The translations under genes and the position numbers were made by a program. This document shows positions 10,342 to 61,873 of a stretch of 64,000 nt of DNA, piece after piece; position 1 is the first letter of the stretch; the number at the start of each line of letters is the position of its first letter. Origin of the DNA: Henckelia pumila (taxonomy: Eukaryota; Streptophyta; Magnoliopsida; Lamiales; Gesneriaceae); contig NC_133122.1 in the NCBI RefSeq assembly GCF_033568475.1, forward strand, positions 137,089,402 to 137,153,401, written 5' to 3'. Below the pieces are notes generated by a model. That model was given only the letters and a program-made list of their open reading frames with translations, was not told the DNA's origin and did no database searches.

Positions 10342-10559
10342 CTAAAAACCAACAGAATATCTGAGTCTAAAGCAAACTTTTACAGGAATCTCAAGCCTTA
10401 CCAGGCCACTAAAATAAAAAAAGGGATCATTTTTAACAGGCAAGAAAAAGCACCCAAAAAAAATGGGAGAAAGAAAGAGCAGAAGCCACTCACAAAGCCC
10501 AAAAAAAGCAGAAAAAACCTTGAAACAGCAGACGCTAATCAGGAACAGTAATGAGTAAC

Positions 10560-12390
10560 ATGTAGGTAATTGCATTCCAGACAAAGAATTCAAAATCTTT
10601 CTTTTCTCATCTTTTGTAAGTGTATAACATGCTGCTGGCAGAAAAGATTTCTTCTCCCCCATCACTGGAGCCAAATCTATCCTCAAATTCATTTCAGCAA
10701 GGTCTAATCTAGCTGCAATTCCATCCTTTGTTTTTCCCGGAATGTCAAGCAACATACCGAGAAGACTTTCACAGACGTTCTTTTCTATATGCATCACATC
10801 AAGAACATGTCTAACATATAGATGTTTCCAATACTCAAGTTCAAAGAAAATTGATTTCTTTTTGAAGGATGATTTTACATCATCCTTTGTGGAGTGAATC
10901 TTCTTTCTCATTTTTCCCCAATGACAATGAATTCCATCAACTTTTTTTAACACTTCATCGCCACTCAATGGTTTGGGTGCAGGGTTGAACTCTTGGTCCC
11001 CATTAAATGCCTTTCTTTGCCTTCGATAAGGATGATTTGCAGGTAGAAACCTTCTATGGCCTGTGTACGACATTTTTCTGCTATGTTTCAACCTTGTTGA
11101 ATATGTTTTTTCACCACAAATCGGACATGCGTGATATCCTTTCACAATACATCCTGACATGTTTCCATATGCAGGAAAGTCATTGATGGTCCACAGAAAG
11201 ACAACTCTAAGCGAGAAGGTTTCTTGTCTATATGCATCATATGCTTCAACACCTGTATCCCATAGGAATTTCAAGTCATCGATTAGAGGTGCTAAGTAAA
11301 CATCGATATCATTTCCTGGTTCTTTGGGACTAGAAATCAACATTGTGAGCATCATAAATTTTCTCTTCATAAACAACCACGGGGAAAGATTGTAAGTGAT
11401 CATTAAAACTGGCCAACAACTATATGTAGAACTCATCAAACCATGGGGATTGATCCCGTCAGCTGAAATGGCCAATCTAAGATTTCTTGCATCAGCTGCA
11501 AAATTTGGCCACTTGTGATCTACTAATTTCCAAGAAGGTGCATCAGCTGGATGGCGTAAGTATCCATCATGAAGTCTTTTATCAGCATGCCAAGTCATCT
11601 CCTTGGAAAACTCTTTATTCCGAAGCATTCGTACAAATCTCGGAATTGGAGGGAAGTACCATAGAACCTTTGCAGGAACTCCTTCCTTTATCGTATCTTT
11701 TTGGTTTATCTTCCACCTTGACATCCCACAAGTAGGACAACTGTTAAAATCCTCATACTCCTTCCGATATAAGATGCAATCATTAGGGCAAGCATGGATT
11801 TTCTTATAAGTAATCCCTAATGCACACAAGCTTTTCTTTGCATCGTAGAAAGATAAAGGCAATTTGTTGTCATCTGGAAGCATTTCTCCTAACAAATTGA
11901 GTAGGTCGGTGCAACTTTTGTCACTCCAACTATATTTGGCTTTCAAGTTGAATAATTTTACAACTGCAGATAACCTTGTAAATTTACTGCATCCAGGATA
12001 TAAAGGTTTCTCAGCATCTTCAAGTAGATTTTTGAATGTGGTTGGATTCTCAGCATAACTATCAAATGCAGCATGTACCATATCTATTGGTTCCTCGGCG
12101 TCAAACTTTGGTTCATCTTCCCTTTCTTGATCACGGTCATTCTTTGAGTTCTTCATCGCAGACCTTTCACCATGCCATATCCAAGTATGATATGTCAAAT
12201 CTATACCATTAGAATACATGTGTGCCCTTATAGTCTCTACCTTTTTCTTTTTCAGATTACCACATTTTGTACATGGACAAGATATTGCTTCCCGATCTTC
12301 GGCATTTTTTATTGCAAATTTCAAGAAAGACTCTACTCTATGCTCATATTCACTTGATAACCGAGACTTTGACATCCATTCTTTGTCCAT
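10560..12390 (-). pseudogene. CACTA transposase TNP2, C-terminally truncated
   Basis: The start at 12390 (MDKEWMSKSRLSS) fits the start of the transposase-associated domain, which spans about residues 1-75 with paired cysteines (CPCTKCGN) and the TYHTWIWHGE box. The TNP2 core follows, with CPNDCILYRKEYEDFNSCPTC, RHPADAPSWKLVDHKWPNFA, SADGINPHG, CPICGEKTYS and the HVLDVMHIEKNVCESLLG box near the end of the visible domain. Similarity stops after about 610 residues at 10565 (SLSGMQLPT), where full TNP2 proteins continue with another C-terminal part. No continuation is visible down to 9453, so the catalytic protein is probably incomplete. The long open frame suggests fairly recent activity. It is the transposase source gene of the element. 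Confidence 0.85.
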
Positions 12391-12465
12391 TCTTTTAGTA
12401 AGTAACACTATAGAGAATAAAATATATAATTTTAATATGTATATTTTCAAGCTGATGATAATCAA

Positions 12466-15398
12466 CAGCTTGACAAATCACAACTGGTAAAGTAATGTAT
12501 ATCGAGAAAATTCTCTGTTAAATCCAAGCAAACCATTAACTAATATGCAGTGACCAGCCTCGAAACTTGAACGTAAGAATTTAACTTTGTGGAAATCATT
12601 TAACATTATCCATGCTTTGAGAAAACTATGCACAATGCACTTACCAATCAGTGATCACTGAGGATGACTGGACCCTTGAACTACTAAACACATAAGTTAG
12701 AGCTAGACTTGTTTTTAAAGCAAGGAAGACACTATAAAAAATTATCTGAATTAATACTTTATGAATAAATAAATAAACCAAAATTTTCCTTCCAGATGCA
12801 CAGCCAAAAGCATAAATTACACTGGACAACCTTTCCTATTCAGATCCCTTGAATTTGTTTTCTAAAGTGATAAAATCTCATTCAAGATGCGATAACATGT
12901 AAGTAAGGTGTACAAGTTTTGAGTTAACCTCCAGAAAATTTTGAGAAGGAGACGAAGATAAATTATATATATTTTGAATAAATCAGTTTATTTATGTCAC
13001 TTAACAGAATAATATAAACTTAGAACAAATTTAAGTTAAATAAATGGATTAATGTAGTTTTTGAAAAGTGATATATCTAACGTTAATAGTATATAGTTTA
13101 ATTATTTAAGTAGGCGGACACATTCATTAAACTAGTATGCTGCACCCGGTGTTCCGTTCACTTAGAGTACATTTTTTTCCTATATTTATGTGACACAAAC
13201 ATAATTTTAAATATTTTTTTTTTGTTTTTCTTTTAATTTGTTTCAATACTTTTATGTTTTTTTAAACCAATTTTATTTGCTTGGTCAAACAGTAAAATCG
13301 AAACACCCGGGGAAAAAAATATTATTCATCAAACAGTAAAACTATACCACGAAACATACTACACGAGGCGAGCAATTCTTATTTTGAGAATAAAATAGCC
13401 TAAGGAAAGACATCATACAACGTAAACCCAACATCATGTTAACAAATACATCTTATGTTGTAAAGTCAAGAAATCCGAGTCTTAGATTTAATTCAGACGA
13501 AAAAAAAAGAAAATAAGTAGGGAGTAACCAGCAACACATCAAACCAGTGCAAGACAGTAAAATCAAACTCTTAACAAAAATGGTTCCACGATTAAAAAGA
13601 TTCCGACACCATATATATATCGAGAACACAACAAATACTGAAAAAGGGAAATATAGGAAGGGGAAGCCTAGACTTTGAGCCCTTTAATGAACGGAATCAC
13701 ACAACAAGCACACCACAGTAGTTCAAAAGTAAAAATTAAACCAAATCTTAGAACCTAATTAAGAAATCCAAATCAGAAAAAAAAATTTGAACTTGGAGGG
13801 GGAGAAAAGAAAGAAAAAGTTTGGGTTACCAGCAAAAGAAGGCAAGCAAGACTTTTGAGTAGCCAAGATAGCTTGAAGCGCTCTAACCTCAGCGAATCTG
13901 CATACTTCGAATAGGAAAGGTTCCAATATTTCCCTAGAATGAAAGAGATTTTGTTAGCACAGGCTGTGATTAGACACACTAATTAAAGATTGTAATTAGA
14001 TTTATGGATTTTATAGAACAATGGTGCTGTGCAGGGATTGGACCTAACTGATGATTGATGAATTAAACGATGGACCTAAGATTGTAATCCAACGATGGTG
14101 CTGTGCAGAATAACGAATCCAAAACCATAAATCTCGTTTTCATGCAAAAAAATATTTAATTAGAAGGAAGGTGCAAAACCTAACTGATGAGTGATGAAAT
14201 TAAAGATGAATCTCCGATAATGAAATTATGTTCACCGGCCATTGGCTATCGAAATAATATCGATATCAAGAAAAAGTACAAATCGGATGAAGAATTGGAG
14301 TTAATAAAAACTCAAGAAATCTTATGAATACCTTAAAAATCAAATTAAACTGATCTCAAGGATGAACCCAAATCTGAATTCCAAGCCATTTGACCCTTCA
14401 CCCTTTCTAATTCGAAGGATTAGTCAATCAAACAGTGTTCTAACATTCATAGCCAAAACACCCACCAATACGCTTTTTGTGGTACAGTTATATTCATGCA
14501 CATATATAAAAAGTTATTCTACAAATAGTGTCATCTGGCAAGCAAATATACATGATCATATATTTAAAGCAACTTGAGAGTTTAAAATACTTTACGAGGT
14601 TGTACAAAAATTAAGGAAGAAAATATACATGATCACATATTTATCATAAACTAAATATGATATGTTTTACTTATATTGTTATAATTTTGAGATAATTTCA
14701 TGCATAGACAAATTAAACACATAGATACAAAGAAAATCTGTGGGCAAGTCGGCTGTAAGTGCAAATTTTAAACACAAATAGAATTTATCTCACTGCTTTG
14801 CAAGGGTGATTTACGCCAGAGACTTTTATGATTTAACCAATAATTAAAAAGCACAAGATGTCTTCATGAATTTTAAACAAGATATCCGTAGATCTTGTGT
14901 GCCAAATACTAAGAATTTCATCCACAAATAAAAGGTAATAGAGGGTTGGGGCTCAGTAAACTTCTGAGTTCTGTGATGAAAATATTACAGGCAGAATAGT
15001 AAGTTTAAGCCAAGGATCTATGACTCGAAATCTGTTAATTCAACAGCCAAAATCTTGATTCTTGCAGCTTTATTTAGTTAAGCCCACTCAAGATAGCAGC
15101 TCATTTCCCTTAAAATAGTGAGTGTCGCATATTGAAGTTAAAATTATTGTAACCAATTTTAATACCACACGGACATGAGCAAATACATACAATTACTCGC
15201 ACAACGTTGAGGAAAAAAGATGTTTTACTGATAATTGAGAAATGAAGAGAGGATGGTGAGATGTAGCGATCATATGGATGAGAAAAACATATACTCTTAC
15301 CCTTGTTCGAATGCAAGCCCTTGTTCGTTGATGCGTCCTTTATTCTGCCCAAGTATTGAAACTGAACAGTGGTCAATTTTTTAATTTAGAAAGGACTC
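12466..15398. other. Non-coding interior of CACTA element upstream of TNP2
   Basis: No recognised exons. The segments ACGATGGTGCTGTGCAG and GATTGTAAT(T/C) recur around 13990-14110, and CCTAACTGATGA recurs at about 14040 and 14180, suggesting a local duplication. Nothing else can be supported. Confidence 0.4.
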
Positions 15399-16659: not shown

Positions 16660-16921
16660 TAGATTTTCTACAACACTATTTAAAAAGTGTTGTGATACAT
16701 GGGAAAAAAACGCTAATAGACAACACTTTTAAAAGCGTTGTCTTTGACCCCAAAAAAAGCATATTCTACAACGCTTTGTAAATAAAGCGTTTTCTTTCAT
16801 AAATAAAAAACATATAACGACAACGCTTTTCACTAAAAGCGTTGTCTTTCAAAAAATTACAACACTTTTCACTAAAAGTGTTGTCTTTTAAGTGTTGTGT
16901 TACTGTATTTTTCTTGTAGTA
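16660..16921 (-). repeat. Right subterminal palindrome array of CACTA element
   Basis: Six or more units of ACAACACTTTT/AAAAGTGTTGT or their ACAACGCTTTT/AAAAGCGTTGT variants lie between 16667 and 16890. The terminus (minus strand ACTACAAGAAAAAT) is at 16907-16920. Such arrays are the usual binding sites of TNPA-type proteins. Confidence 0.7.
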
Positions 16922-29800: not shown

Positions 29801-30066
29801 GTGTTATTTGATGGAAATATCCATGTGAGTTATGAGGATTCAAGGATAAAACTAGTCTTGTGTATCTGCTCGGGTTTTGGGTGATTAGACTGTCAATTGA
29901 ATTCTTCCATGCGACTAGAAAATTTGATGATTGTGTTTGTTGGCTTGACCAACGATGATTATAACTCGAACTGTGGGAGGTGCTAGAGTTTTAAATCAGT
30001 TAGGAGACACTAGTGTAATGCCAGATATACTATATTCAACTACTCGGTAGTATAATAAGGTAGATT
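29801..30066 (+). other. Non-coding flank of CACTA insertion (probable gypsy interior)
   Basis: No coding sequence. It appears to continue at 34332-34731 on the far side of the CACTA element, where it leads into a PPT and LTR. It is therefore probably the 3' non-coding interior of a Ty3-type element. Confidence 0.4.
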
Positions 30067-30094
30067 CACTACAAGAAATAAGGTAGATTCACTA

Positions 30095-30345
30095 TAATCC
30101 GTTGTCGTAGGGGTCGAAAAACTGTTGTACTTTTAGGCGTTGTCGAAAGTATAACATACGACAACGGTTTATAACCGTTGTGGATTTCAACATATGACAA
30201 CGGATATGCAACAGTAAATATCTGTTGTCGTACACACTATTTGACCACGGTTTATAACCGTTGTCTTAAGTTGTCTTTTACGACAGTTATAAACCGTTGT
30301 CTATGTTGGCATACGACAACAGATTTTATCCGTTGTCGTTTCCCA
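30095..30345. repeat. Left subterminal palindrome array of gene-carrying CACTA
   Basis: Repeated CCGTTGTCGTA and ACAACGGTTTATAACCGTTGT units, at least six, starting inside the left terminus. Confidence 0.8.
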
Positions 30346-30469
30346 TATAAAAAAACAAAAAAATAATAATATAAAAATTTCTATATTATAAATAAACCAA
30401 AATTTAAAATTTCAAAAATAAAATTTAATATACAATTTTGTAGTATTAAAAATCACTCGAAATTAAATT

Positions 30470-30712
30470 CTAATGCAATGCAATTACAAATTTTTGGCAT
30501 CCATTGTTTACAAATCTTTTGTAGGAGGCTACAAAGGGTGCATGAGACCAATCAGTTTTGACTCTCCACCTTATGTATTCCAATCATCAGCATTCCATAT
30601 CGAACTGTACACCCCCATTGGTTGGTCTTTTGGAAATGGTATGCCTTTGTGCTCTAAGTTAGAGTGTACATCACACTGGAGTTTCGTCCACTGAGAATCT
30701 GCAAAAGTGTTG
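30470..30712 (-). pseudogene. Captured fragment of a xyloglucan endotransglucosylase/hydrolase (XTH) gene
   Basis: After a 3' splice acceptor (TTTTGCAG at about 30713) the minus strand reads FSVDETPV and, after a frameshift, [20 protein letters not shown]. Further frame breaks follow before KTDWSHAPF and ASYK. This is the second half of the XTH catalytic domain, downstream of the missing ExDxE active site. XTH enzymes cut and rejoin xyloglucan in the cell wall. At least two single-base shifts and a stop (TAA where relatives have a Gln codon) make it non-coding. It is the last captured fragment before the left CACTA end. Confidence 0.8.
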
Positions 30713-31120
30713 ATATTTCGTGAGCAAACTGTGCTGAGCAAAGAGAAGCATTGTTTAATGAGTTACGAAAAGGTTTCAAAAGAGTGCCTTCACCAAGAGA
30801 ACCAAGAATCAACAAGAGCAGACTTTTCTGCACAGAAAATTGAGCAAAGAGATGCATAGTCAAGAAAGTGATGATCAAGAAACATCACGACAAATGATCA
30901 AGAAAGTGCATAATTATTTGTCGTCCTCAATCAAAACAAAAAATCATCACTTTCGATTAACACATACTCGTAAAACAGAGAAAAAGGCTAAAATCAAGAA
31001 CCTAGAAATTGAAACTCGTTGAGAACTAAATCTACATTGAAGCCAACAAAAATGATTCGAGTGCAAGCAAAAATACCCTTTCAACAAATTATATGAAAAA
31101 ATTCTCAACAGATAACATAC

Positions 31121-31215
31121 CATAGAGATCTTCAGGTAAGCACGTCTAATTTCTTCGTCTGAAGAATAGGAGCAAACACCAATAACTCGATGAAGTGAAG
31201 GTGACCCTCCTCTGA
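31121..31215 (-). pseudogene. Captured J-domain exon of a DnaJ protein gene
   Basis: Minus strand reads RVIGVCSYSSDEEIRRAYLK then ISM and stops at a good donor (ATG|GTATGT, exon end 31121). This is helices I-II of a J domain, of the kind in plant DnaJ proteins with ..VLGV...SSDEEIRRAYRKLAM. The HPD motif would be in the next exon and is absent. J proteins stimulate Hsp70. Confidence 0.7.
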
Positions 31216-31415
31216 ACTCCCTATCAGAAACCAAACCCAACAAGTGGAAACTCTTTGATTCACGGAATGGAAAGAGTAATACACCCAAATTACACTTAAT
31301 TCAAGATTTTGCAACTGGGTTTCATTCATGATGCTCCACACAGGAGTATCATTCATATGCTCAGAAAGCAGCTATTGTTTTAGCTTCATATTCAAGAATT
31401 TTTAAAAAAACTCAC

Positions 31416-31487
31416 CTGAAAATTTATCGCAACCATCGCCAGTCAAATTACTTCTACTGAGATTCAAAAACAACAAGGCACCACGAG
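31416..31487 (-). pseudogene. Captured LRR exon 2 (72 nt)
   Basis: Exactly 72 bases between an acceptor (CTGCAG, 31488-31493) and a donor (GTGAGT). Reads ARGALLFLNLSRSNLTGDGC followed by DKFS. It continues the LRR begun in the exon at 31567-31638 and keeps the reading phase. One LRR per 72-base exon is typical of several plant LRR gene families. Confidence 0.75.
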
Positions 31488-31566
31488 CTGCAGGAACACA
31501 AAATCATTTGATAAAAATTGAACAGCAAACTGGCAAGTATAAGTAGAAAACAAACACAAAATATAC

Positions 31567-31638
31567 CTGCAAGTGACTCGAGACATAGAGCCGTGACGGG
31601 ACAACCCTCAATATTTAAAAGAGCAAGTTTCTTCAACG
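31567..31638 (-). pseudogene. Captured LRR exon 1 (72 nt)
   Basis: Exactly 72 bases between an acceptor (TTGCAG at 31639-31644) and a donor (GTATAT). Reads LALLNIEGCPVTALCLESLA. From memory the motif LNVEGCPVTAACL belongs to intracellular plant LRR proteins of the cysteine-containing type. Frame open and splice sites intact. Confidence 0.75.
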
Positions 31639-32002
31639 CTGCAATTCAAATATCATTAAACAACATCCAAACACAAATCACTTGCCAAGGCAAATAAAAA
31701 AATGATCCAAATGCTTCACTTCCCCAATTTGATCCTTTGTATGCCACCCAAACCTCGGAGCACAAATAATCCATATGTATAAATATAATGGTTTCTACAA
31801 TATTAAACCATACACATGGATATATAATCATTTTTATTAAGAAAATTAAATTTGTGTGGACAATAAAATCTCACGAAGTAAAAAATTCTTGGCAAAATGG
31901 AGATCCGTCAATTGCAATAGTGTAAATCAATGTTCCCAGCATAAGACAACCCAAAACACTAAAAAGAACCCTAGCTCCGACAACAGAAAGTTTGCCCTTT
32001 GA

Positions 32003-32242
32003 TCATGTTCCATCCCTAAGAGTTGATTGGACAATCAGTAAACAATTTAGGAAAAGAAAAAAATAAGATACGATAGAATACAGAGGATTTATATTTGTTA
32101 CTAACTTTTTTCTGGTTCTGAGCAAAAAAAAGTAAATAGAATCTTTCATTGATTCCTGTGGAGTTAGCTTGAAGAACTGCAAAACAATGTATCCACATGT
32201 CGTAATGCTGCAAAGGCAAAAACAGACATTTTTACCATTCAC
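32003..32242 (-). other. Possible further captured exon, origin unknown
   Basis: After an acceptor-like TTTTTGCCTTTGCAG (about 32210) the minus strand is open (HYDMWIHCFAVLQANSTGIN). I do not recognise the family. It could be an intron remnant or another captured piece. Confidence 0.25.
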
Positions 32243-32390
32243 TGGTATGCAAGCTCTACGTATCCATGTTAGAAAATATATGAGAGGATTATGACAATTT
32301 AACCATTTGGCAAGAAAAGACAGCTACAGGAATTATATATGACATGAAAAATGAAAGTTGAAATCAGGAGAATCAATAAAAACATACATT

Positions 32391-32535
32391 ATATAAGAGT
32401 AGGGCCATCCGATGGTTCCATAAAAGCAGATAAATATTCGTACAAGGAGGATCCATGTTCTTATCATTCTGCCAAGCTTCAGGAATCATCATCATTATAG
32501 CTTCCGGGAGACTTCTACCAGCTCGAACCAAAATT
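32391..32535 (-). pseudogene. Captured fragment of a glutamate synthase (GOGAT) gene
   Basis: Minus strand reads LVRAGRS then [20 protein letters not shown], and after a short deletion and frameshift [17 protein letters not shown]. This is the N-terminal glutaminase domain region of plant glutamate synthase (..[18 protein letters not shown]...ALYEYFS..MEPWDGPA..). Glutamate synthase makes glutamate from glutamine and 2-oxoglutarate in plastids. Only about 45 codons remain and the frame is broken. Confidence 0.85.
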
Positions 32536-32729
32536 GTAGCAGTATGACACAGGCACTTTGGTTCAGTGAATCGTGAAAATCCATATTATAGTGGCCTAAA
32601 GGATTTGAGTGCCCCTGATTTACTACAAAGGATTGGATATTTCCTGATTAGTACATATTGCATATGGATTGTTTTTTCTTATTGGGACGCACACCAAGTC
32701 ACCAACCCTTCCTCAAATATATTTTTACT

Positions 32730-32754
32730 TGATAAATAAATAAATAAATAAATA
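32730..32754. repeat. Microsatellite (TAAA)n
   Basis: About six TAAA units inside the gene-carrying CACTA element. Confidence 0.9.
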
Positions 32755-32896
32755 ATATCATTTATATTAATACAACTAATTAATTACTGAAATAATAAAT
32801 TCAATAATAGTCTATACACGGTTATAATACAAGATGATGACATAGTAATCGTTTTGGTTATTTTACAAAACATCCCTATTACATTTTTCACATGAA

Positions 32897-32950
32897 CATC
32901 CATCCATCCATCCATCCATCCATCCATCCATCTATCTATCTATCTATCTT
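32897..32950. repeat. Compound microsatellite (CATC)n(TATC)n
   Basis: About nine CATC units followed by five TATC units, inside the gene-carrying CACTA element. Confidence 0.95.
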
Positions 32951-33243
32951 GTTTAGTAACATGCTTCATTATCAGATCGACTAAAATTACACTCAAACAG
33001 ACCAATAATCACTCAAAACAATTCCTTGAAGAATTGTAACTAAATGCATCCAATGGAAGGGCAAACAAATGCACTAATAAAACTAGATATCTATAAATCA
33101 CACTTAACCCCAACAAAAAGAATCACAAAATTCAGTGTAATTGCATACTGATGAAAAATTACCTAAAAAAAGGAAAAAGAACTCTACAAAGCTCAGGCGA
33201 CAATGGAATTTCAAAAACAAAAGCATCACAAATTAAAAAATAC

Positions 33244-33378
33244 CTTTTAAAAAATCACAATTCTCCGCCTCTTTCCTCACCACATCGAGCACTGAATCGA
33301 GCAACTCGGCTCCCTTAGTATAATTACCCTTCGCCAAGTTGTCCCCTGCCCCAGCCTATTCGAAAACAATAATCATCC
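33244..33378 (-). pseudogene. Captured beta-tubulin exon fragment
   Basis: Minus strand reads [20 protein letters not shown] followed by [18 protein letters not shown], then the donor GTATTT. Plant beta-tubulins read [36 protein letters not shown] here, with their first intron at this place, so the native splice site is kept. Upstream, weaker similarity to the DNFVFGQ segment is visible but interrupted by a stop (TAG). Changes such as NNW to DNL show relaxed constraint. Confidence 0.85.
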
Positions 33379-33639
33379 TCTTATTATACATCATTTGTTA
33401 TAATCTGGTGTAGTGTCTAACAAAATCAGATGGGAGAAATTTGCAACAATTATCTGCAAATTAAAGTTTAAATGCGTTCTTAGTCACATAAATTTTGTAA
33501 AATTAATCTCATATAATCGACTAATCTAGACAATAATGAAAATGAAAAATAATTATCTGCAAACATAAACCATCCATAACAGAATAATATTAAGCAGCCA
33601 TTAAGTGAAGTTTGAAGCAAGAAACCTATGTTGGACAGT

Positions 33640-33900
33640 GCTGGAAATTGATTTGTAATTTGGTGAGGAGACGAGAAGCCGAGCAGGGCTGGAGGCGTGA
33701 GCGAGTTCGAGGAACTCGCTAAATCCATGAGCACGGCGCTAGCTAAAAGGAGGTCGGACGAACTGATTTCAGTGATCGAACGGTGGCTAGGGCGCCGGAG
33801 CTGAGCTAGATCGAAGGGGAGACGGGTTGGGGCTAGGGTTTGGGTTTTCTCTTTTCTTTCCTAATTTCCACTCTTCACGCGAGTAGGTGTATATAGGTTA
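33640..33900 (-). promoter_or_regulatory. Putative 5' leader of the captured transcription unit
   Basis: On the minus strand a TATA-like CCTATATACACC lies at about 33885-33896, followed by a pyrimidine-rich leader and an ATG at 33728 (MDLASSSNSLTPPALLGF). The words AVLMDL just around this ATG equal the beta-tubulin segment AVLMDL, so part of the leader may be tubulin exon. A donor-like ATAG|GTTTCT follows. No transcript evidence can be given. Confidence 0.35.
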
Positions 33901-33984
33901 TGTGTGTATGGGTGGGTACATTTATATTTTCTAAAAACATAAATATATATATTTCCTAAAATCATTAAAAAAAAAAATTAAAAA

Positions 33985-34300
33985 CAACGGTTTACAAAAA
34001 GTGTTGTCTTAGACTACATAAAGCAATGCAAAAAGACAACGGTTAAAAAAAACCGTTGTTGTAGAGCTCCAAAAACACGCATATAGACAACGGTTAATTA
34101 AAACCATTGTCGTAGGCCATAAAAAACCCGCTCATAAACAACGGTTTTAAAAAACTGTTGTCTTTTACATATAAAAGACAACGATTTTTTAACAACCGTT
34201 GTCGTTTTTAATTAAAATACGGCCAACGACAACGGTTTTCGTAAAAACCGTTGTGAAAGACCAAAAAATAACAGTTTGTGTATAAAATCGTTGTCTTTTT
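33985..34300. repeat. Right subterminal palindrome array of gene-carrying CACTA
   Basis: Eight or more ACAACGGTTTT / AAAACCGTTGT units, for example ACAACGGTTTTCGTAAAAAC near 34228. Confidence 0.8.
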
Positions 34301-34331
34301 AGTGTAGTTAATTAACATATTTGTTGTAGTG

Positions 34332-34731
34332 ATTCAACGATAGAAAGAGGGATTTTGTATCTAAGGTCGGGCATGGGATTTTGGGGTAACTTGTCCGCTA
34401 GTTTGAACTACACATTTTTCAGAGTATCGTGAAATTTCAGTCAATAGATTCTTGATTGGAGAAGGATTACAACACCAGTTTTGATAATATGATAGAAGTG
34501 TGTTAGGATGGAACTAGATTAAGATTTAAGTTCAATTATTGAGTACAACTATAATCCAGCTGGGATGAATCGTGTTTGTTTCCGACAGGACATTTTGGAT
34601 TAATAAAATCTAGACTTTCTTATGGTTTAGATCTAGGATATATCAACGGTTTGAGGAATCTTGTTGAGAATACATTCTTAGGGTTGATCAAGACCTAATT
34701 TCGAGAAAGAAATCTGTTAAGGTGGGGAGAA
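34332..34731 (+). other. 3' non-coding interior of a Ty3-type element with PPT
   Basis: No reading frame. It ends in the polypurine tract AAGGTGGGGAGAA (34719-34731) directly before an LTR. Apparent continuation of 29801-30066 across the CACTA insertion. Confidence 0.55.
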
Positions 34732-38953: not shown

Positions 38954-39184
38954 CCCACAAGGGCCGGCACGGCGGCATCCCCGTAATAATATTCCATTCT
39001 TTTTTTCATTCCTATTAATGCTTTCTTTGATTCCAATTCAAAAAACCCACATTCTTTGTCTTTTCCAAAATTTTCAACATCGTAATTCTCGTACCTCTTT
39101 GGATTATATAATGTATTTCCTAAAAAAAATAAAAAAATTTACTTTATACAACTCCGGAATTTGCATGTTTCCAGGGAGAGAGTC

Positions 39185-41676
39185 ATGAAGATAAAAAATG
39201 AATCTCTAATTCTGATTCTATTGTCCCTTTCACTGGCATTTGCTGATGACTCCCCTTCCAATTTTACTGTCCCCGGAAAATCTTTCAGCCAAGGATCCAA
39301 TATAGCGAAACCTGGCTGCGAAACAAAGTGCGGAGATGTAACTGTTCCATTCCCTTTTGGCATTGGAAACAACTCAGGCTGCTCCATTGACCCCTGGTTT
39401 TATATAAACTGTGATAAATCCGTCAACCCGCCGAAACTCACCATTACACCGTCTAAACTTGAAGTTTTGAACATATCTGAAAGTGAAATACGTATAAAAA
39501 ACTCGGTTGCTGCGAGATGCTACACAGAGACGGGCATTACCACCCGCCAAAACTTGACAGGAATCGACCTGACAGGATCTCCCTACAGCTTTTCTGAGCT
39601 CAACAAGTTTACCGTAGTGGGCTGCGACGATTTGGCTTTGATTGTTGGTACCAGCGGAAGGAACTTTACGAGCGGATGTTTGTCACTTTGCTCACAGCAG
39701 AGTGATTTACTAGATGGATATTGTACTGGCATTGGTTGCTGCCAGACACCGATTCCCAAAGGTTTAAAGAATTTTGCGACGGCTCTCGCGAGTCTCAATA
39801 ACCATACTAATGTTTGGAGTTTTGATGCTTGTGGGTACGCTTTTATCGGGGATCAGGACGTGTTTAAGTTTCGGGTCTCGGATTTTTCAGACGAGAATTT
39901 TCAGAACAACACCATTCAGGAAGTTCCTATTGTAATTGATTGGGCTCTTGAGAGTGAGAGTTGTGAGGAAGCTGAGAAATCTGCTGATTTTGCTTGTAGA
40001 AAAAATAGTGTTTGTGTCGATTCAAGCACCGGTCTTGGAGGATACCGATGCAATTGCACCGCAGGATACGAAGGAAATCCGTATCTTAGTCCAGGCTGCA
40101 CAGGTTAGTTTATGTTTCTCAAATTGTTGGCTCTCTGTTTCAGTGTAAAATTATGAGCTTATTGTACCTAACAGACCTTCTTTGTGACAGATATAAATGA
40201 ATGTGATAGCAATCCATGCGATGCAAATGGTATTTGTACAAACACTCGAGGTAGTTTTACTTGTGCTTGCAAAAAAGGATTCTCTGGCGATGGAAGAAAG
40301 GATGGACATGGTTGTATTGCTGTAGATCAGTTTCCAGTACTAAAATTGTCCATAGGTAATTTATTTACCAAGTTCGTGCCAATAATACAAATCATATTTT
40401 GGAGTATATATGATGCGTAAAAGTATTATCAAGTAATTTAATTAGTGTCAATTTTGGTATTCCAGGTTTGAGTATTGGTTTGCTGTCCATTTTTACTGGA
40501 ATCACATGGCTATATTTTGGAATCAAGAAAAGAAAGCTCGTCAAAATGAGAGAAAAGTTCTTCTACCAAAATGGTGGGCTCCTTCTGAAACAACAGGCTT
40601 CATCTCTCGAGTCGAGTAAGATCTTCTCAGGTGAAGAGCTAGAGAAGGCCACTAATAACTACTCTGAAGACCGTATCCTTGGCAGGGGAGGTTATGGCAC
40701 GGTCTACAGAGGAATCCTTCCCGATCAACGAGTGGTCGCCATTAAGAAATCCAGAATCATGGACCAGAACCAAATCGAGCAATTTATAAACGAGGTGATT
40801 ATTTTGACTCAAGTGAACCATCGAAATGTCGTCAAGCTATTGGGATGTTGCTTGGAGAGCGAAGTTCCTTTATTGGTTTACGAGTATATATCAAACGGTA
40901 CACTCTTTCATCACATACAAAACAGTGTCGAGGCGACTTGGTTTTCTTGGAGCAACCGTTTAAGAATTGCTGCTGAATCTGCTGGTGCACTTGCCTATCT
41001 CCACTCGGCAACTTCGATGCCTATTATCCACAGAGACGTCAAGTCCAGCAACATACTCCTAGACGACTCGTATACTACAAAAATATCGGATTTCGGAGCA
41101 TCAAGACTGGTCCCTTTAAACCAAACACAAGTGACAACTCTTGTTCAGGGGACTTTAGGCTATTTGGACCCGGAGTACTTCCAAACGAGCCAGTTAACAG
41201 AAAAAAGCGATGTTTATAGCTTCGGGGTCGTTCTTGCCGAGCTAATGACTGGGAAAAAGCCCCTTTCTCCCACAAAATCAGAAGTAGAGAGGAACTTAGC
41301 CACATATTTCATCATGTCTGTTAAAGAAAACCGCATGTTTCAAATTGTCGAGCCTAGAATCTTGAAAGAAGCTAGTTTCGAGCAGCTGCAACAAATCGGT
41401 GAGCTTGTGAAGAGATGTCTGAGTTTGAAAAGTGATGAAAGGCCAACAATGAAAGAAGTGGCATTGGAGCTTGAAGGGATAAGGAAATCAACTCAACATC
41501 CATGGATTGATCAACAACAAGATAGAGAAGAAAATGATGCTCTTTTAGGCCAAGAATCGGCCGGACCCGAAGCAGATTTATATGCAATCAATTTTGTCCC
41601 AAAAATTAGTTCATCAGAAGCAGATTTTATCCAAGATACTATGGACAGTCCTATGATACATCCCATTCCCCGTTAG
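39185..41676 (+). CDS. Wall-associated receptor kinase (WAK/WAKL)
   Basis: Three exons with GT-AG borders: 39185-40103, 40191-40355 and 40466-41676, total 2295 bases, 764 residues. I chose the ATG at 39185 because it opens a signal peptide ([20 protein letters not shown]). Next come the galacturonan-binding GUB_WAK domain (about 45-105, [13 protein letters not shown]), an EGF-like cysteine cluster at the end of exon 1, a calcium-type EGF in exon 2 ([18 protein letters not shown]), a membrane segment at about 362-382 and a Ser/Thr kinase. The kinase keeps the glycine loop [25 protein letters not shown] and DFG, so it looks active and of the RD type. WAKs bind pectin at the plasma membrane and signal in growth and defence. 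No disruption is seen; this is the only intact host gene in the window. Confidence 0.92.
40104..40190 (+). other. WAK intron 1
   Basis: CACAG|GTTAGT donor and TTTGTGACAG|AT acceptor. Splitting the two EGF modules here is the usual WAK gene arrangement. Confidence 0.85.
40356..40465 (+). other. WAK intron 2
   Basis: ATAG|GTAATT donor and TATTCCAG|GT acceptor. The joined codons run directly into the membrane segment. Confidence 0.85.
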
Positions 41677-44829: not shown

Positions 44830-46842
44830 CTCTTGTTAAGAAATCTGCAAGAATATTTTCATGAGATTTAATCATAACAATATCAAAAATATAATTTTGA
44901 CATAATGCTTGCCATCTTAATAACCTAGTTTTCTCAGGTTTAGATTCAATCTTATTTTTTTAGGAAAGCTTTTATCTGGGTGTTATCAACCTTCAGAGTG
45001 AATTTTTTAGCAAGTAAAAATAATGGCCATTTTTCAAAAGCCCTTTTAACTGCATAAAATTCCTTCTCGTTGATATGCCATCTAATGGCCTCAGATTCTG
45101 AAAAAAAAACCGCTACAATATCTGCATGTTATTTCCCCATCTGGAGTGATCTTGGTAAGGACTGCTGCCCACCAATCGTCACTGACATCCGTAAATAATA
45201 CCAGATCATCTTCATCTACGGGTATAGCCATTTTTGGGAGATTCTTACATATCTCTTTTAATTGGTTTACCCCTTTAGTATGGTCATCGGTCCATATAAA
45301 CCTAGCATCCTTTTTTAACAAAGGACTGAACACCTTTCTGTACATTGCTAGATTGTTAATGAACATCCCTGCAAAATTAACTACTCCAAGAAAACTCTGG
45401 AGTTGTTTTACATCTTTGAGTTTATCTGGAAAATTATTTACCTTTTCCACAATATGGGGTTGTAGAATTATTCCAGTTTCATCAATCTCAATACCGAGGA
45501 ATTCAATTTTCCTCGTTGCTATGACTGCTTTCTTTTCAGATAAAACCAGTCCTTCTTGTTTACAAATTTTAGAAAAAATCTCTAAGTGTTTAACGTGTTC
45601 GTCTATATTTTTTGATGCTATAAGAATATCATCAATATAAACAAACATAAAGTTGAAATAATCTTTAAAAAGGTTATCCATCTTTCTTTGAAATATCTGG
45701 GGTGCATTAGCTAATCCCATAGGCATAACTTCCCAAATATAGTGTCCTTGTGGAGTAGAGAAGGCTCTGAATTTCTTACTTCCTTCTTCCATTCGAATCT
45801 GGTAAAATCCAGACTTACAATCAAATTTTGAGAACACTCTAGCATTTCGTACATAGCTAATTAGGTGTTCTCTACTTGGTATAAAGTATCCATCAAACTC
45901 CAGGATTTTATTAATACCTTGGTAGTTAATAACTAGCCTGAGTTTCCCTCTTTTTATTTCACCATGATTTCTAACCAGAAAACCTGGGCTGCTATATGGT
46001 GAAACTCCTTCTTTGATTAAACCAAGGTCCAAATGTTCCTTGATAATCATTCTCATATCCCTTTGATCTGTTATGTTTATCGGGATAGGCTTATATCTGA
46101 CGAATTCATACTCTTTGCCTTCCTTTAGAGTAAGACTGGCTTTGAGTTGATTTCTATCCCACCATGCCAAAGGATGCTAGTTGTAACTTTCTTTGAACCT
46201 CTTTTTGACATCTTCAAGGGATACTTTATTCTCTAACTCTATATCTCTGTGATTTAGAGTTACCTTGAGAAGCTCCATATCCTCTGTTTGGAGTTCTTGT
46301 TCTGTTGTTATTTTCAACATGGTTTCTCCAAACCTTCTTGGATCTTTCATTTTTGGGTGAAAAAGTTGTCCTTTATCACTACGCTGGCTGCGAAATATTA
46401 TCGGCAATTGTCGTTAAAAAGAAACCTTGAGTCTTTGAACGATAATTTTATGATCACAAATTGTAGTGAACATAAGTCTTCTTGACTCATTGTCTTGTGT
46501 GTACTTCTTAAACATTTGTAAGAAGTTATTTCCTAACAGGATATCAGCTCCTGTATCATGGAAATAGATTGGTGGTGTTTTTAACTTGTACCAAGGTGTT
46601 TGACCTGCACCTCCCATAAGGATCTCTGCTTGTTTTATTCCTTTGAAAAGAATTAAAATTCTTCGAGAGAAATCTCGTCCAGCAATTTTTGGCAATTCCT
46701 CTTCACATTCTTCAGGAAAGACTCCTCTTTTTGCTATACAAATTCCTGCTCCCGAGTCAATATAAGCTGCAAAAAACTCAGCCTTATATTGTTCATATAA
46801 CATCCCTATCGGAATGTATATGGAGAAAGGACTTGTTGTCAT
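44820..46842 (-). pseudogene. Viral pol: aspartic protease, reverse transcriptase, RNase H (broken)
   Basis: It starts with an ATGA overlap with the preceding ORF at 46842. The protease at 46842-46414 has the AYIDSGAG active site. Two in-frame stops (TAA near 46414, TAG near 46177) come before the reverse transcriptase at 46170-45091, whose motifs are intact: LRLVINYQGINK, FSKFDCKSGFYQI, MGLANAPQIFQ, VYIDDILIAS and KIEFLGIEID. A frameshift at an 8-base homopolymer near 45100 and another near 44950 break the RNase H (FYAVKRAFEKWPLFLL and ILADFLTRDG). The protein copied viral RNA into DNA; this copy cannot be made intact. Clearly caulimovirid rather than Ty3, given the lack of an integrase and the neighbouring ORFs. 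Confidence 0.9.
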
Positions 46843-48418
46843 TTTTTAAAGGGATTACAAAATGGCCCCGCCATTTTTAACAGACTGTGTTGTAACTCAG
46901 TAATCCGATTAAGACTATTTACCTTTAGTTTCCCTATGGCCTCAGAAGGTAGAGTATGGTTACTCCTTTCTACTTCTTCAATGCGTTCTAGTAAATCATG
47001 TTCATGACTTACTAATTTCAACTGTTGCTTCTTCCTCTTTCTGTGAACAGAGTTCTCGAATCTGATTAAGGGACTGTCCCTTATCCAATTCTCTTGGTTT
47101 TCCATTTCGTAGAATTCTTATTGAATCCTCCAAGTCTTTTCTTTTGTCATGAACTCTATTCCTTTTTCAAGGCGTTTCCATGGTTTATGGTCCTCCAGGA
47201 ATTCTAGACAAAGAATGAGTTGATCAATTTCTTTTCCTGGAATTCCCCAGATTTGAACTTCCAATTCTCCAATATTTATCACTCCTTGGTAAGTTCCTTT
47301 TTCCTGTTTTTCCAAATAGTAAATCGAGTTACAAAGGAACAAGTTCCGATGACTTGTAATTTCGAATACTATTTTCACTTCTTTCCATCCTTCTGGAGAT
47401 CTAAGTTTTCCTATTATAGAAAACTTTTTTTTTTTTCTAGTGAAATTTCTTGAATAGGAGATTTGTCCCATCTCCTGCTTGTCATTCTGTCTCCTTGGAA
47501 AGATAACCTTCGGGGTTCTATTTTAAGGTCTCTGTATAGAACCAGTCTGTATTGAATTTGAATGTCTGTTTCCTGAATTAAAGGAAACTCGATTCTTTCC
47601 AGGTATATTGCTTGAGCAACTTTCCCAAAGATATCTGGAATTTCAATGAACTCATTTCTAATAAATAATTCGGAATGGTGAGTATTAGAAAGAGCATATG
47701 AAATTTGATACGTAATAGAATATGGTCTATTACCTTCCTTCATTAGTCTTTTTTCCTTGAAGTTTTGATGCAAAGTCAAGGCTCGACTAAAATCTCTATC
47801 AGCTAAATTGTAGGCTATTCTTGGATAAATAACTCCCACAATTTTTCCTGCACATAAATTTTCTGAGATAGTTCCTAGAACCGCATCTTGTATATTCCTC
47901 ATTCTTTTATCGCATACTACGATATCTATGGGTGAATCTATTCCCTCTTTAAAAGTAGCCTTGATCATAATCTGGATTGCTCCAATATAAATCCAAGACA
48001 TTGTATTTGCTACTTCTGCTTTTAATTTCTGTAATTCTTCTCAAATTTCTTCAAAGGGAATTAACTGCATTTCAATTTGATTACTGGTTAATTTCATAGG
48101 GATCGCCATTTCCCTTCTGGATACCTTATAAATCAAATTATGTCTTCTTTGTCTTAGCCCTAGGCTTCCTAAGACTCTTTCAACTTGTCCTGCTGAAAAT
48201 CCTTGGTACTTCTGTAATGTTGGATTTTCTCTCATAATCCTTTGGACCATATTATGAGATATCGTGGTTTGACTAAAGAACCCAGCCAAACTTTCATGTG
48301 TTTCATGGCGAAACACTTCCTCTTTACTCTGATTCTGATTCTGATTCATCTTCAGAAACTTCTCGACTAAACAATATCTCTTCTTCGTATATGCTTTCAT
48401 CTGAGGGGATATCCTCAA
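46839..48418 (-). pseudogene. Viral movement protein ORF (broken)
   Basis: It starts upstream of 48041, probably at the ATG near 48346 (MNQNQNQSKEEVFRHE), which overlaps the end of the capsid frame. An in-frame TGA lies near 48041. The core 30K-type movement domain follows (YIGAIQIMIKATFKEGIDSP and RIAYNLADRDFSRAL). A frameshift at a long A run near 47430 and a stop near 47118 break the C-terminal part, which ends in a Lys/Glu-rich coiled-coil-like segment at 46839. Movement proteins carry virus between cells through plasmodesmata. Confidence 0.8.
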
Positions 48419-58813: not shown

Positions 58814-61800
58814 ATAAATGTATTTTCTTGGGTATTGGATACCAGATGTAGATCTCACATTTGCAATGAGTTGCAAATGATGACAAGAAGTAATAGGCTT
58901 AGAATGGGTGAGACCCAACTGAGGCTCGGAAATGGTTCTAGAGTTGAAGCCAAAGCTATGGGAGACGTTTATTTAATTTTGCAGAACGATTTTAAGTCAC
59001 TTTTGAGAGATGTTTTATTTGTTCCAGATTTGGTCAAAAACATTATTTCTATTTCTATGCTTGATAGAGATGGTTATTCTTGCAATTTTGTGAATGAGAT
59101 TTGCAATATTTACAAGAATGAATGTTTAATTGGAAATGGACAACTTGAAAACGATCTATATAACTTAAAATTAAAAGACGTTTCAATGAATTATGTCGAT
59201 AAACCGGTAACAACAAATAAAAGGAAAAACGATAGTCAAAACCCGACAAATCTTTGGCATGCTAGGCTAGGTCATATTTCCTCAAGGAGGATGAACAAGC
59301 TAGTGGGAGAGGGCATGTTTGATATGTCTGATATTAACTCTCTACCTACTTGTGAATCCTGCCTGAAAGGAAAAATGATTAAATCTCCATTCAAGGGGAA
59401 ACCTGAGCGTAGTCAAAATCTGTTGGATTTGATCCAAACAGATGTTTGTGGTCCATTTAGAATTGGTACTCAATTTGGCCACACCTACTTCATTACCTTT
59501 ACTGATGATTATTCAAGGTATGAGTATTTATATTTAATGAAATATAAGTCTGAAGCATTTGAAAAGTTCAAAGAATTCAAGGTTGAAGTAGAAAACAAGC
59601 TAGGTAAAAGTATTAAAGCACTTCGATCGGATCGAGGTGGAGAATACTTAAGTACCGAGTTTTTGGACTATCTGAAAGAGAATGAGATTCTCTCTCAGTG
59701 GACTCCTCCTATGACACCTCAGCTGAATGGTGTATCGGAGCGTCGTAATCGAACTTTGTTGGACATGGTTCGATCCATGATGAGCTTCACTGAGCTTCCA
59801 CCTTCTTTTTGGGGCTACGCGCTTGAAACGGCGGTGTTGTTGTTGAACAACGTCCACACCAAAGCAGTGAACAAAACACCATACGAGTTATGGAATGGCA
59901 AAGCTCCTAAGTATTCGTACTTGAGGATTTGGGGATGTCCTGCTTACGTGAAGCAGACAGTGGGAGATAAGTTGGATAGTCGATCCACCTTATGTTATTT
60001 TGTAGGGTATCCAAAGAATTCAATCGGATATTATTTCTATCATCCTGCTGAAACAAAGGTGTTTGTTTCAAGGAATGCCACCTTCTTGGAGAAGGAGTTC
60101 TTATTGGATAAGAAAGGCGAGATGATGGAACTCGAAGAAATTCGAGAAGAACCCGAAATACAAAATAATGATCCTACACCTCAGGAACCATTGATAGACA
60201 CGCCTATACCTAGAAGATCCGGGAGGACTTCTAGACCTCCTATTCGATATGGTCTTCTTCTTGAAGGGGATCAAGATGAACCCGATGTTGGATGTGATCC
60301 AAGAAACTTCAAGAAAGCAATTTCTGATGCGGATTCAAATTTATGGCTTGAAGCTATGCAGTCGGAAATAGATTCGATGCATACAAACCAAGTTTGGTCT
60401 TTAGTAGATCCTCCCGATGGAATTGTTCCAATAGGGTGTAAATGGATCTACAAGAGAAAGCTTGGGCCTGATGGTAAGGTATTGACCTACAAGGCACGAT
60501 TGGTGGCGAAAGGTTATACTCAAAGACAAGGAGTTGACTATGATGAAACCTTTTCACCAGTTGCAATGTTCAAGTCCATAAGAATCCTTATTGCCATAGC
60601 TGCTTGGTATGACTATGAGATATGGCAAATGGATGTGAAGACTGCATTTCATAATGGAAACATTAAGGAAGAGATCTATGTGACGCAGCCTGAGGGATAC
60701 ACATCCATGAGAAGTGAGCATAAGGTATGCAAGATTCAGAGATCGATCTATGGTCTCAAACAAGCATCAAGAAGTTGGAACCAGAAATTTGATGAAACAA
60801 TAAAGGATTTTGTTTTCATCAAGAACCCGGAGGAACCGTGCGTGTACAAGAAAGTAGTTAAGGATGCTGTGACATTCTTAGTACTTTATGTTGATGACAT
60901 CCTACTCATTGGGAATGATGTAGGGATGTTGCAGTCAACAAAGATATGGTTATCAGGTAGATTCTCGATGAAGGATTTGGGTGAGACATCCTATATTCTA
61001 GGGATACAGATCTATAGAGATAGATCTAAGAGAATGATAGGACTCACTCAATCAACTTACATCGAAACCATATTGAAAAGGTTTTCAATGGATGGGTCCA
61101 AGAGAGGACATCTACCTATGTGTCATGGAGTTTCTCTATCCAAGTCCATGTGTCCCAAGACTGATGAAGAGATAGAGAAAATGACACATGTACCATATGC
61201 GTCAGCCATAGGTAGTATCATGTATGGGATGATATCTACCAGACCGGATGTAGCATTTGCTCTGAGTGTCACGAGCAGATATCAAGCTAATCCCGGTCAA
61301 ATGCATTGGAAAGCCGTGAAGGACATTCTTAAGTACTTACGAAGGACTAAGAATATGTTCATGGTATATGGAGGAAGAGAACTAAAATTGGAAGGCTATA
61401 CCGACTCTAGCTTCCAAAGTGACGTGGATGACTCGAAGTCAACCTCTGGATTTGTGTTCATGCTCAATGGCGGTGCTGTCTCTTGGAAGAGTTCCAAGCA
61501 GGACACCACAGCGGATTCCACCACTGAGGCAGAATACATTGCGGCATCAGCTGCTGCTAAAGAGGCCGTTTGGATGAGGAATTTCGTCCAAGAGTTGGGC
61601 GTCATTCCTGAAGTTGTTGGTCCAGTCCCGGTGTACTGTGACAACACGGGTGCCGTTGCTCAGGCAAAGGAACCAAGGTCTCATCAAAGATCCAAACACG
61701 TACTGAGGAAATATCACATCATCCGGGAGATCGTGGAAAGAGGAGACATCACTGTCGAGAGAGTGGCCTCTGCAGACAATATCGCTGATCCAATTACTAA

Positions 61801-61873
61801 GCCCTTCCCAGGACCATTATTTGACAAACATCGCGAAGAAATGGGTCTACGTAGTATGACTAGTTGGCTTTAG
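58814..61873 (+). CDS. Copia pol: protease, integrase, reverse transcriptase, RNase H
   Basis: More than 1000 uninterrupted codons. The usable ATG is 58835, but homology starts at 58814 inside the protease. The active-site line reads LDTRCRSHIC instead of LDTGCGSHIC, so the catalytic DTG is lost. The integrase keeps its zinc-binding HHCC (WHARLGHIS..CESCLKG) and D-D-E (LIQTDVCGPF, TFTDDYSRY, NGVSERRN). The RT keeps MDVKTAFHNG and YVDDILLIG, and the RNase H keeps YTDSSF, TEAEYIAA and CDNTGAVA. The end (NIADPITKPFPG) is complete. It makes and integrates copia cDNA. With gag deleted and protease mutated this copy cannot act alone, but the enzyme domains look functional. PPT at 61877-61887. Confidence 0.9.
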   Translation: MNVFSWVLDTRCRSHICNELQMMTRSNRLRMGETQLRLGNGSRVEAKAMGDVYLILQNDFKSLLRDVLFVPDLVKNIISISMLDRDGYSCNFVNEICNIYKNECLIGNGQLENDLYNLKLKDVSMNYVDKPVTTNKRKNDSQNPTNLWHARLGHISSRRMNKLVGEGMFDMSDINSLPTCESCLKGKMIKSPFKGKPERSQNLLDLIQTDVCGPFRIGTQFGHTYFITFTDDYSRYEYLYLMKYKSEAFEKFKEFKVEVENKLGKSIKALRSDRGGEYLSTEFLDYLKENEILSQWTPPMTPQLNGVSERRNRTLLDMVRSMMSFTELPPSFWGYALETAVLLLNNVHTKAVNKTPYELWNGKAPKYSYLRIWGCPAYVKQTVGDKLDSRSTLCYFVGYPKNSIGYYFYHPAETKVFVSRNATFLEKEFLLDKKGEMMELEEIREEPEIQNNDPTPQEPLIDTPIPRRSGRTSRPPIRYGLLLEGDQDEPDVGCDPRNFKKAISDADSNLWLEAMQSEIDSMHTNQVWSLVDPPDGIVPIGCKWIYKRKLGPDGKVLTYKARLVAKGYTQRQGVDYDETFSPVAMFKSIRILIAIAAWYDYEIWQMDVKTAFHNGNIKEEIYVTQPEGYTSMRSEHKVCKIQRSIYGLKQASRSWNQKFDETIKDFVFIKNPEEPCVYKKVVKDAVTFLVLYVDDILLIGNDVGMLQSTKIWLSGRFSMKDLGETSYILGIQIYRDRSKRMIGLTQSTYIETILKRFSMDGSKRGHLPMCHGVSLSKSMCPKTDEEIEKMTHVPYASAIGSIMYGMISTRPDVAFALSVTSRYQANPGQMHWKAVKDILKYLRRTKNMFMVYGGRELKLEGYTDSSFQSDVDDSKSTSGFVFMLNGGAVSWKSSKQDTTADSTTEAEYIAASAAAKEAVWMRNFVQELGVIPEVVGPVPVYCDNTGAVAQAKEPRSHQRSKHVLRKYHIIREIVERGDITVERVASADNIADPITKPFPGPLFDKHREEMGLRSMTSWL

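Follow-up and report, generated by a model that had tools for sequence, protein, structure and literature searches.

The question raised by this locus is how pieces of several unrelated host genes come to lie, all read from one strand, between the two ends of a single transposon. The locus is a 4.3-kb element at positions 30067-34331 of a 64-kb stretch of Henckelia pumila DNA (the window, by which we mean the whole stretch that was analysed). An earlier note, made from the letters of the sequence, had described it as a multi-gene Pack-CACTA with five donors in one orientation, and had seen in that orientation a sign of selection or of a mechanism favouring sense-oriented stacking. Based on the analysis given below, the element is very probably a non-autonomous Pack-CACTA, a patchwork of exon-plus-intron pieces from five or more, and probably six, unrelated genes of the host.

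Ends of the element

The element, whose captured genes are read on the minus strand, has borders that match 30067-34331 exactly and carries CACTACAA at both ends. The left end, from 30067, reads CACTACAAGAAATA and the right end, taken on the minus strand from 34331 inward, reads CACTACAACAAATA, with 13 of the 14 outermost positions identical between the two, including all of the first 8. These are terminal inverted repeats (TIRs) beginning with CACTA, as in the CACTA (En/Spm) superfamily, and the 3-bp target-site duplication (TSD) of that superfamily is also present, as ATT at 30064-30066 on the left and ATT at 34332-34334 on the right. Each end bears a subterminal array of the motif ACAACGGTT/AACCGTTGT. 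The left terminal repeat with its array (30067-30366) holds 4 exact copies and 9 at one mismatch or fewer; the right array with its terminal repeat (33969-34331) holds 8 exact copies and 13 at the same tolerance, and includes tandem units of 51 bp and 41 bp. The 12 exact copies of ACAACGGTT in the 64-kb window all lie in these two ends and none lies outside them, as compared with a mean of 0.36 expected from 100 shuffles. These cis-features are those of CACTA transposons as set out in the accessible part of PMC8978399, and the termini, the ATT duplication and the paired subterminal arrays that the earlier note had reported are confirmed.

The left junction shows a further peculiarity. A 21-bp direct repeat runs across it (30054-30097), with copies at 30054-30074 and 30077-30097 that are identical at 20 of 21 positions with a spacing of 23. 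The repeat contains 13 host-flank bases followed by the start of the CACTA end. The 13 host-flank bases recur inside the present left end of the element, and the duplicated junction gives CACTA starts at 30067 and 30090 with ATT before each. The simplest reading is a local duplication over the left junction that took place after insertion. Neither a second copy of the element nor an empty insertion site was found within the 64-kb window. Helitrons, by definition, have no TIR and no TSD and insert between A and T, whereas 30067-34331 has TIRs and a 3-bp TSD.

Gene fragments inside the element

The inside of the element was scanned with Pfam over all stop-to-stop open reading frames (ORFs) of at least 40 aa lying wholly within 30350-33950, which are 40 in number (18 on the minus strand and 22 on the plus strand), together with six shorter minus-strand ORFs. 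None of the 40 gave a transposase, as the earlier note had also stated, and with host coding DNA in its place the element has the composition of a Pack-CACTA. At E <= 1e-3, domains are matched by 5 of the 18 minus-strand ORFs (tubulin, GATase_2, DUF1475 twice and GH16) and by 0 of the 22 plus-strand ORFs, the best plus-strand value being 0.02. This contrast is an internal control, both for the reality of the fragments and for their lying on a single strand. The plus-strand matches to DUF6625 (0.02), Ste5 (0.023), FBD (0.046), Ndr (0.25) and KORA (0.25) were judged to be chance, as were Na_K-ATPase (0.4) on the minus strand and DUF2909 (0.07) on a typed DUF1475 peptide.

Along the minus strand the order is beta-tubulin, glutamate synthase, DUF1475, two leucine-rich repeat (LRR) exons, a probable J-domain piece, and xyloglucan endotransglucosylase/hydrolase (XTH). 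Five of these donors (tubulin, glutamate synthase, DUF1475, LRR and XTH), which belong to unrelated protein families, are recognised at E <= 1e-6.

The DUF1475 fragment (31679-32207, minus) stems from a membrane-protein gene. When the Primulina eburnea protein P0002 is searched by tblastn against the window, one colinear match is obtained, at 7.3e-42. In the protein search 193 of the 201 candidates lie at E <= 1, and all 120 matches listed bear PF07343. Among these listed matches the most similar named relatives come from Primulina, Henckelia and Dorcoceras, whose proteins are 70-82% identical over 77-93% of the query, and the top bit score is that of a protein from Arctium (64% over 78%) in which the N-terminal part is repeated. 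A six-sequence alignment puts the fragment at 81% identity both with P0002 and with P0005 of Henckelia pumila. Judged from this one gene, the host is probably a member of the Gesneriaceae or close to that family. The fragment comprises an exon at 32106-32207 with an intron next to it, an exon at 31875-32015 that by splice reconstruction contains one in-frame TGA, and an exon piece at 31679-31753, with a segment of the donor protein absent between the latter two. With the first two exons joined in silico at AG/GT, the product reads ...LLRTRKKDGT*SKGKLSVVGARVLF... as against LLRTRKKDGTDSKGKLSVVGARVLF of P0002, and over the junction RTRKKDGT*SKGK equals RTRKKDGTDSKGK of P0002, the stop excepted.

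A swap of the DUF1475 exons, in which profile positions 200-235 would stand ahead of 8-42, was considered and rejected, full-protein alignment giving an internally duplicated protein in its natural order. As a separate observation on this gene, the annotated isoform P0012 of Henckelia pumila ends in the frame GLGGIQRIKLGKCSSLDHFVYLPWQ, and the first part of that frame is also open in the element, as GLGGIQRIKLGK (31719-31802, minus); in the P0012 end frame the same exon is probably read out of frame.

The beta-tubulin piece (33244-33377, minus) is the end of an exon followed by a GT donor. Its Pfam score (7.8e-6) is under Pfam's curated cut-off, and by phmmer against the PDB it aligns with a beta-3 chain, over residues 95-132 of the latter, at E 8.7e-14 with 29 of 38 residues identical; a stop codon is present in the upstream part of the fragment. 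The remaining 9 of 38 residues differ from the best PDB match, a chain that need not be from a plant, and some of these differences may separate plant tubulin from the compared chain rather than reflect decay. The glutamate synthase piece (32392-32572, minus), from the GATase_2 domain and interrupted by frame breaks, is matched by Pfam at 8e-9 on the plain ORF and at 6.6e-15 with X bridging the breaks, its sole PDB match being Fd-GOGAT at a weak 0.25. The XTH piece (GH16; 30512-30698, minus) is an exon that follows an AG acceptor and contains stops and frame breaks, with Pfam values of 9.8e-5 on the ORF and 1.1e-12 with X at the breaks, and its sole PDB match is a xyloglucan endotransglycosylase at 8.9e-7.

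The two LRR exons (31567-31638 and 31416-31487, minus) are each 72 nt long with AG/GT flanks. The spliced piece matches P0121, an LRR protein of Lactuca sativa, at E 4.9e-13 with 74% identity over 96% of the query, this being the only match in the second LRR search (28 candidates, 1 at E <= 10). The match is borne out when P0121 is searched by tblastn against the window, which gives 1.9e-13 in two colinear pieces. By Pfam the LRR signal is weak (0.031), and the PDB gave nothing firm, the best value being 0.18 to a protein that is not an LRR protein. The piece at 31121-31204 (minus), followed by a GT donor, is probably from a J-domain (DnaJ) exon. The values are weak, with Pfam at 0.13 for the ORF and 0.043 after trimming and the PDB at 1.1 for the ORF and 0.055 after trimming, yet J-domain proteins make up all 13 PDB matches obtained after trimming.

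Upstream of the tubulin piece lies a block (33626-33847, minus) with a GC content of 55% as against 34% for the element, which resembles a 5' leader plus first exon and has GT after it. A weak match of the block to RMI1_N_N (Pfam 0.0081 for the ORF and 0.0034 for a typed extension) was set aside, plus-strand chance matches reaching 0.02, and a PDB search with the block gave 0 matches. It is noted that the donor list of the earlier note is thus borne out for the beta-tubulin, glutamate synthase and XTH pieces on the minus strand and for the two LRR exons, and for the J-domain exon as probable only, and that it had missed both the DUF1475 fragment and this GC-rich block.

Capture, decay and the shared orientation

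Introns are kept in the DUF1475 and LRR fragments, whereas in a processed retrocopy they would have been removed. Since splicing in silico restores the donor protein over the junctions in both cases, it was DNA and not mRNA that was captured. The fragments have also decayed, as indicated by the in-frame stop of the DUF1475 piece, the frame breaks of the glutamate synthase and XTH pieces and the nine tubulin differences.

The following pathway can be proposed. A transposase made elsewhere would move the element in trans, as its intact-looking ends suggest, and the pieces would be taken up successively as genomic DNA; for Helitrons of maize, a stepwise capture is argued in the available part of PMC3288121. 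The uptake might occur by repair of an excision gap with copying from other templates, abortive gap repair being a published capture route (cited in the accessible part of PMC8978399), or by two adjacent elements being re-mobilised as one, tandem insertion followed by aberrant excision being likewise a published route (the available parts of PMC13317346 and PMC8903248). After the capture the pieces would drift without selection at the protein level. If the element is transcribed, by read-through or from 33847-33626, the kept splice sites could yield chimeric RNAs, as in Tgm-Express1 of soybean.

A more extended form of the second route, for which a certain though limited probability is to be allowed, is that several CACTA elements, each with captured DNA of its own, inserted in tandem and were then re-mobilised together. 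This could alone conserve the orientation of the fragments, and local insertion in the same orientation with subsequent fusion is reported for Pack-type elements in the parts of PMC8903248 and PMC13317346 at hand. However, fusion predicts remnants of the terminal arrays inside the element, and none is seen in the 3602 internal bases at one mismatch or fewer, so gap repair with template switching is slightly favoured.

By contrast, it was proposed in the earlier note that sense-stacking was selected or mechanistically favoured. Taken further, the element would on this reading be a proto-gene where a captured promoter and first exon drive a chimeric transcript through all the fragments. Every assigned fragment does lie on one strand, as the Pfam contrast of 5/18 minus-strand with 0/22 plus-strand ORFs also indicates, the GC-rich leader-like block stands at the upstream end, and splice sites are retained. 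However, the two-sided chance of one orientation is 0.0625 for five fragments, 0.031 for six and 0.016 for seven (with the leader-like block included), computed post hoc on one element that was chosen as striking, so that the shared orientation of all assigned fragments is weak evidence for sense-stacking. The reading frames are moreover broken, and Tgm-Express1, in the available part of its description, splices captured exons chimerically without a known product. With such chance values and with fragments that have decayed, the proposal of selection or of a stacking mechanism is not supported, and judged from the sequence it would seem unlikely. We likewise doubt its most specific form, that the element is a sense-oriented cassette of assembled exons in which a captured promoter and first exon at 33847-33626 drive one minus-strand RNA through the exons of six donors. 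If this form is true, sibling elements would share the one-way stacking, and this would speak for a route of capture that depends on orientation, or for selection of fragments that are compatible with splicing. Claims of an orientation bias exist for maize Helitrons and are not used here. In the parts of the literature that were searched, no statement on an orientation bias of Helitron- or CACTA-captured fragments was found.

That the element is not a product of CACTA capture at all, and is instead a fragment-rich stretch of other origin (e.g., a Helitron or a degenerated chimeric gene) with CACTA ends by chance, is very improbable, for although Helitrons likewise stack gene fragments (PMC3288121, as far as available), matching ends, TSD and arrays flank exactly 30067-34331, with the exact motif nowhere else in the window.

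We thus return to the Pack-CACTA composed of captured exon-plus-intron pieces, a reading that the ends, the TSD, the arrays and the donor matches support. Several points weigh against it. Capture, as opposed to assembly by another route, is inferred from anatomy, and the unmet prediction of internal arrays made by the fusion route is weak evidence, as the remnants could be hidden by decay or deletion. As for the donors, the assignment of the leader-like block is weak, as is that of 31204-31121 to a J-domain, and the LRR assignment depends on one protein match. Moreover, an earlier LRR search with nearly the same piece (41 candidates) gave none at E <= 1; P0121, with 424 aa, was within the length range of that search and was yet missed. 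Note also that the protein searches covered minus-strand pieces, with the plus strand tested by Pfam alone, and plus-strand pieces of genes with no recognisable Pfam domain could have escaped.

Neighbouring features and known relatives

A second CACTA-type element is probably present in the window, with a TNP2 open frame of 711 aa (10345-12477, minus; Pfam domain Transposase_21 at E 5.6e-95) and, about 4 kb from it, palindrome-like subterminal repeats ACAACGCTT/ACAACACTT that end in TACTACAAGAAA (16685-16921). The two elements are alike in the end sequence TACTACAAGAAA and in having palindrome-like subterminal repeats, whereas the subterminal motif ACAACGCTT/ACAACACTT differs from the ACAACGGTT of 30067-34331. 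Subterminal motifs vary between CACTA families, according to the available part of PMC2613891, and with its different motif the TNP2-associated element is therefore probably of another family; its other end was not found in the window. The window also contains, at 39086-41673 (plus), a wall-associated-kinase-like gene with galacturonan-binding and protein kinase domains in two open frames. What looks like an endogenous caulimovirid lies at 45094-48040 (minus), where separate open frames carry the domain of a viral movement protein, a peptidase A3 of the cauliflower-mosaic type, and a reverse transcriptase. A copia-type polyprotein with integrase and reverse transcriptase domains occupies a 1019-aa open frame at 58814-61870 (plus).

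Among known systems, the closest to the element is Tgm-Express1 in the wp allele of soybean, a 5.7-kb CACTA element that, in the accessible part of PMC1947982, carries fragments of five unrelated genes. In its cDNA wp-12c five cassette exons are all spliced correctly, and in wp-6c five are spliced with two splicing errors (same part of the source). Because five exons are spliced together in cDNA, the fragments of Tgm-Express1 should share one orientation; this is what we infer ourselves, the word orientation being absent from the part of PMC1947982 available. The fragment number seen here and, by that inference, the orientation thus have a close precedent. Both elements, as far as the source describes Tgm-Express1, are non-autonomous CACTA elements several kb in length that hold both exon and intron pieces from unrelated genes and have kept the splice sites. 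They differ in host and in donors, with five firm donors and one probable donor in 4.3 kb in the present case, and while Tgm-Express1 sits within an F3H1 intron, the surroundings of 30067-34331 yielded no identified host gene.

The element also resembles the Pack-CACTAs of Arabidopsis and maize, which in the available part of PMC8903248 have CACTACAA ends, a TSD and host coding DNA without transposase, and often several donor loci; the maize Pack-CACTAs have the most distinct donor loci among the Pack types studied there. The remark in the earlier note that CACTA elements usually capture one or two genes overlooks both the five of Tgm-Express1 and these multi-donor maize elements. A further likeness is to the Tpn1 family of Ipomoea nil, non-autonomous CACTA elements where the inside has been swapped for captured genic DNA and the terminal regions are kept. 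That family has, with one exception, 3-bp TSDs in the part of PMC5105172 available, and its TIRs are of 28 bp, unlike those of 30067-34331 with 13 of 14 terminal positions matching.

The element at 30067-34331 thus adds one case to the documented Pack-CACTA class, and a rather dense one. It is a well-preserved case of a cut-and-paste transposon that has shuffled exons and retained their introns and splice sites. If the orientation should turn out to be one-sided in a whole family of elements of this type, it would become possible to test how CACTA elements capture genes.

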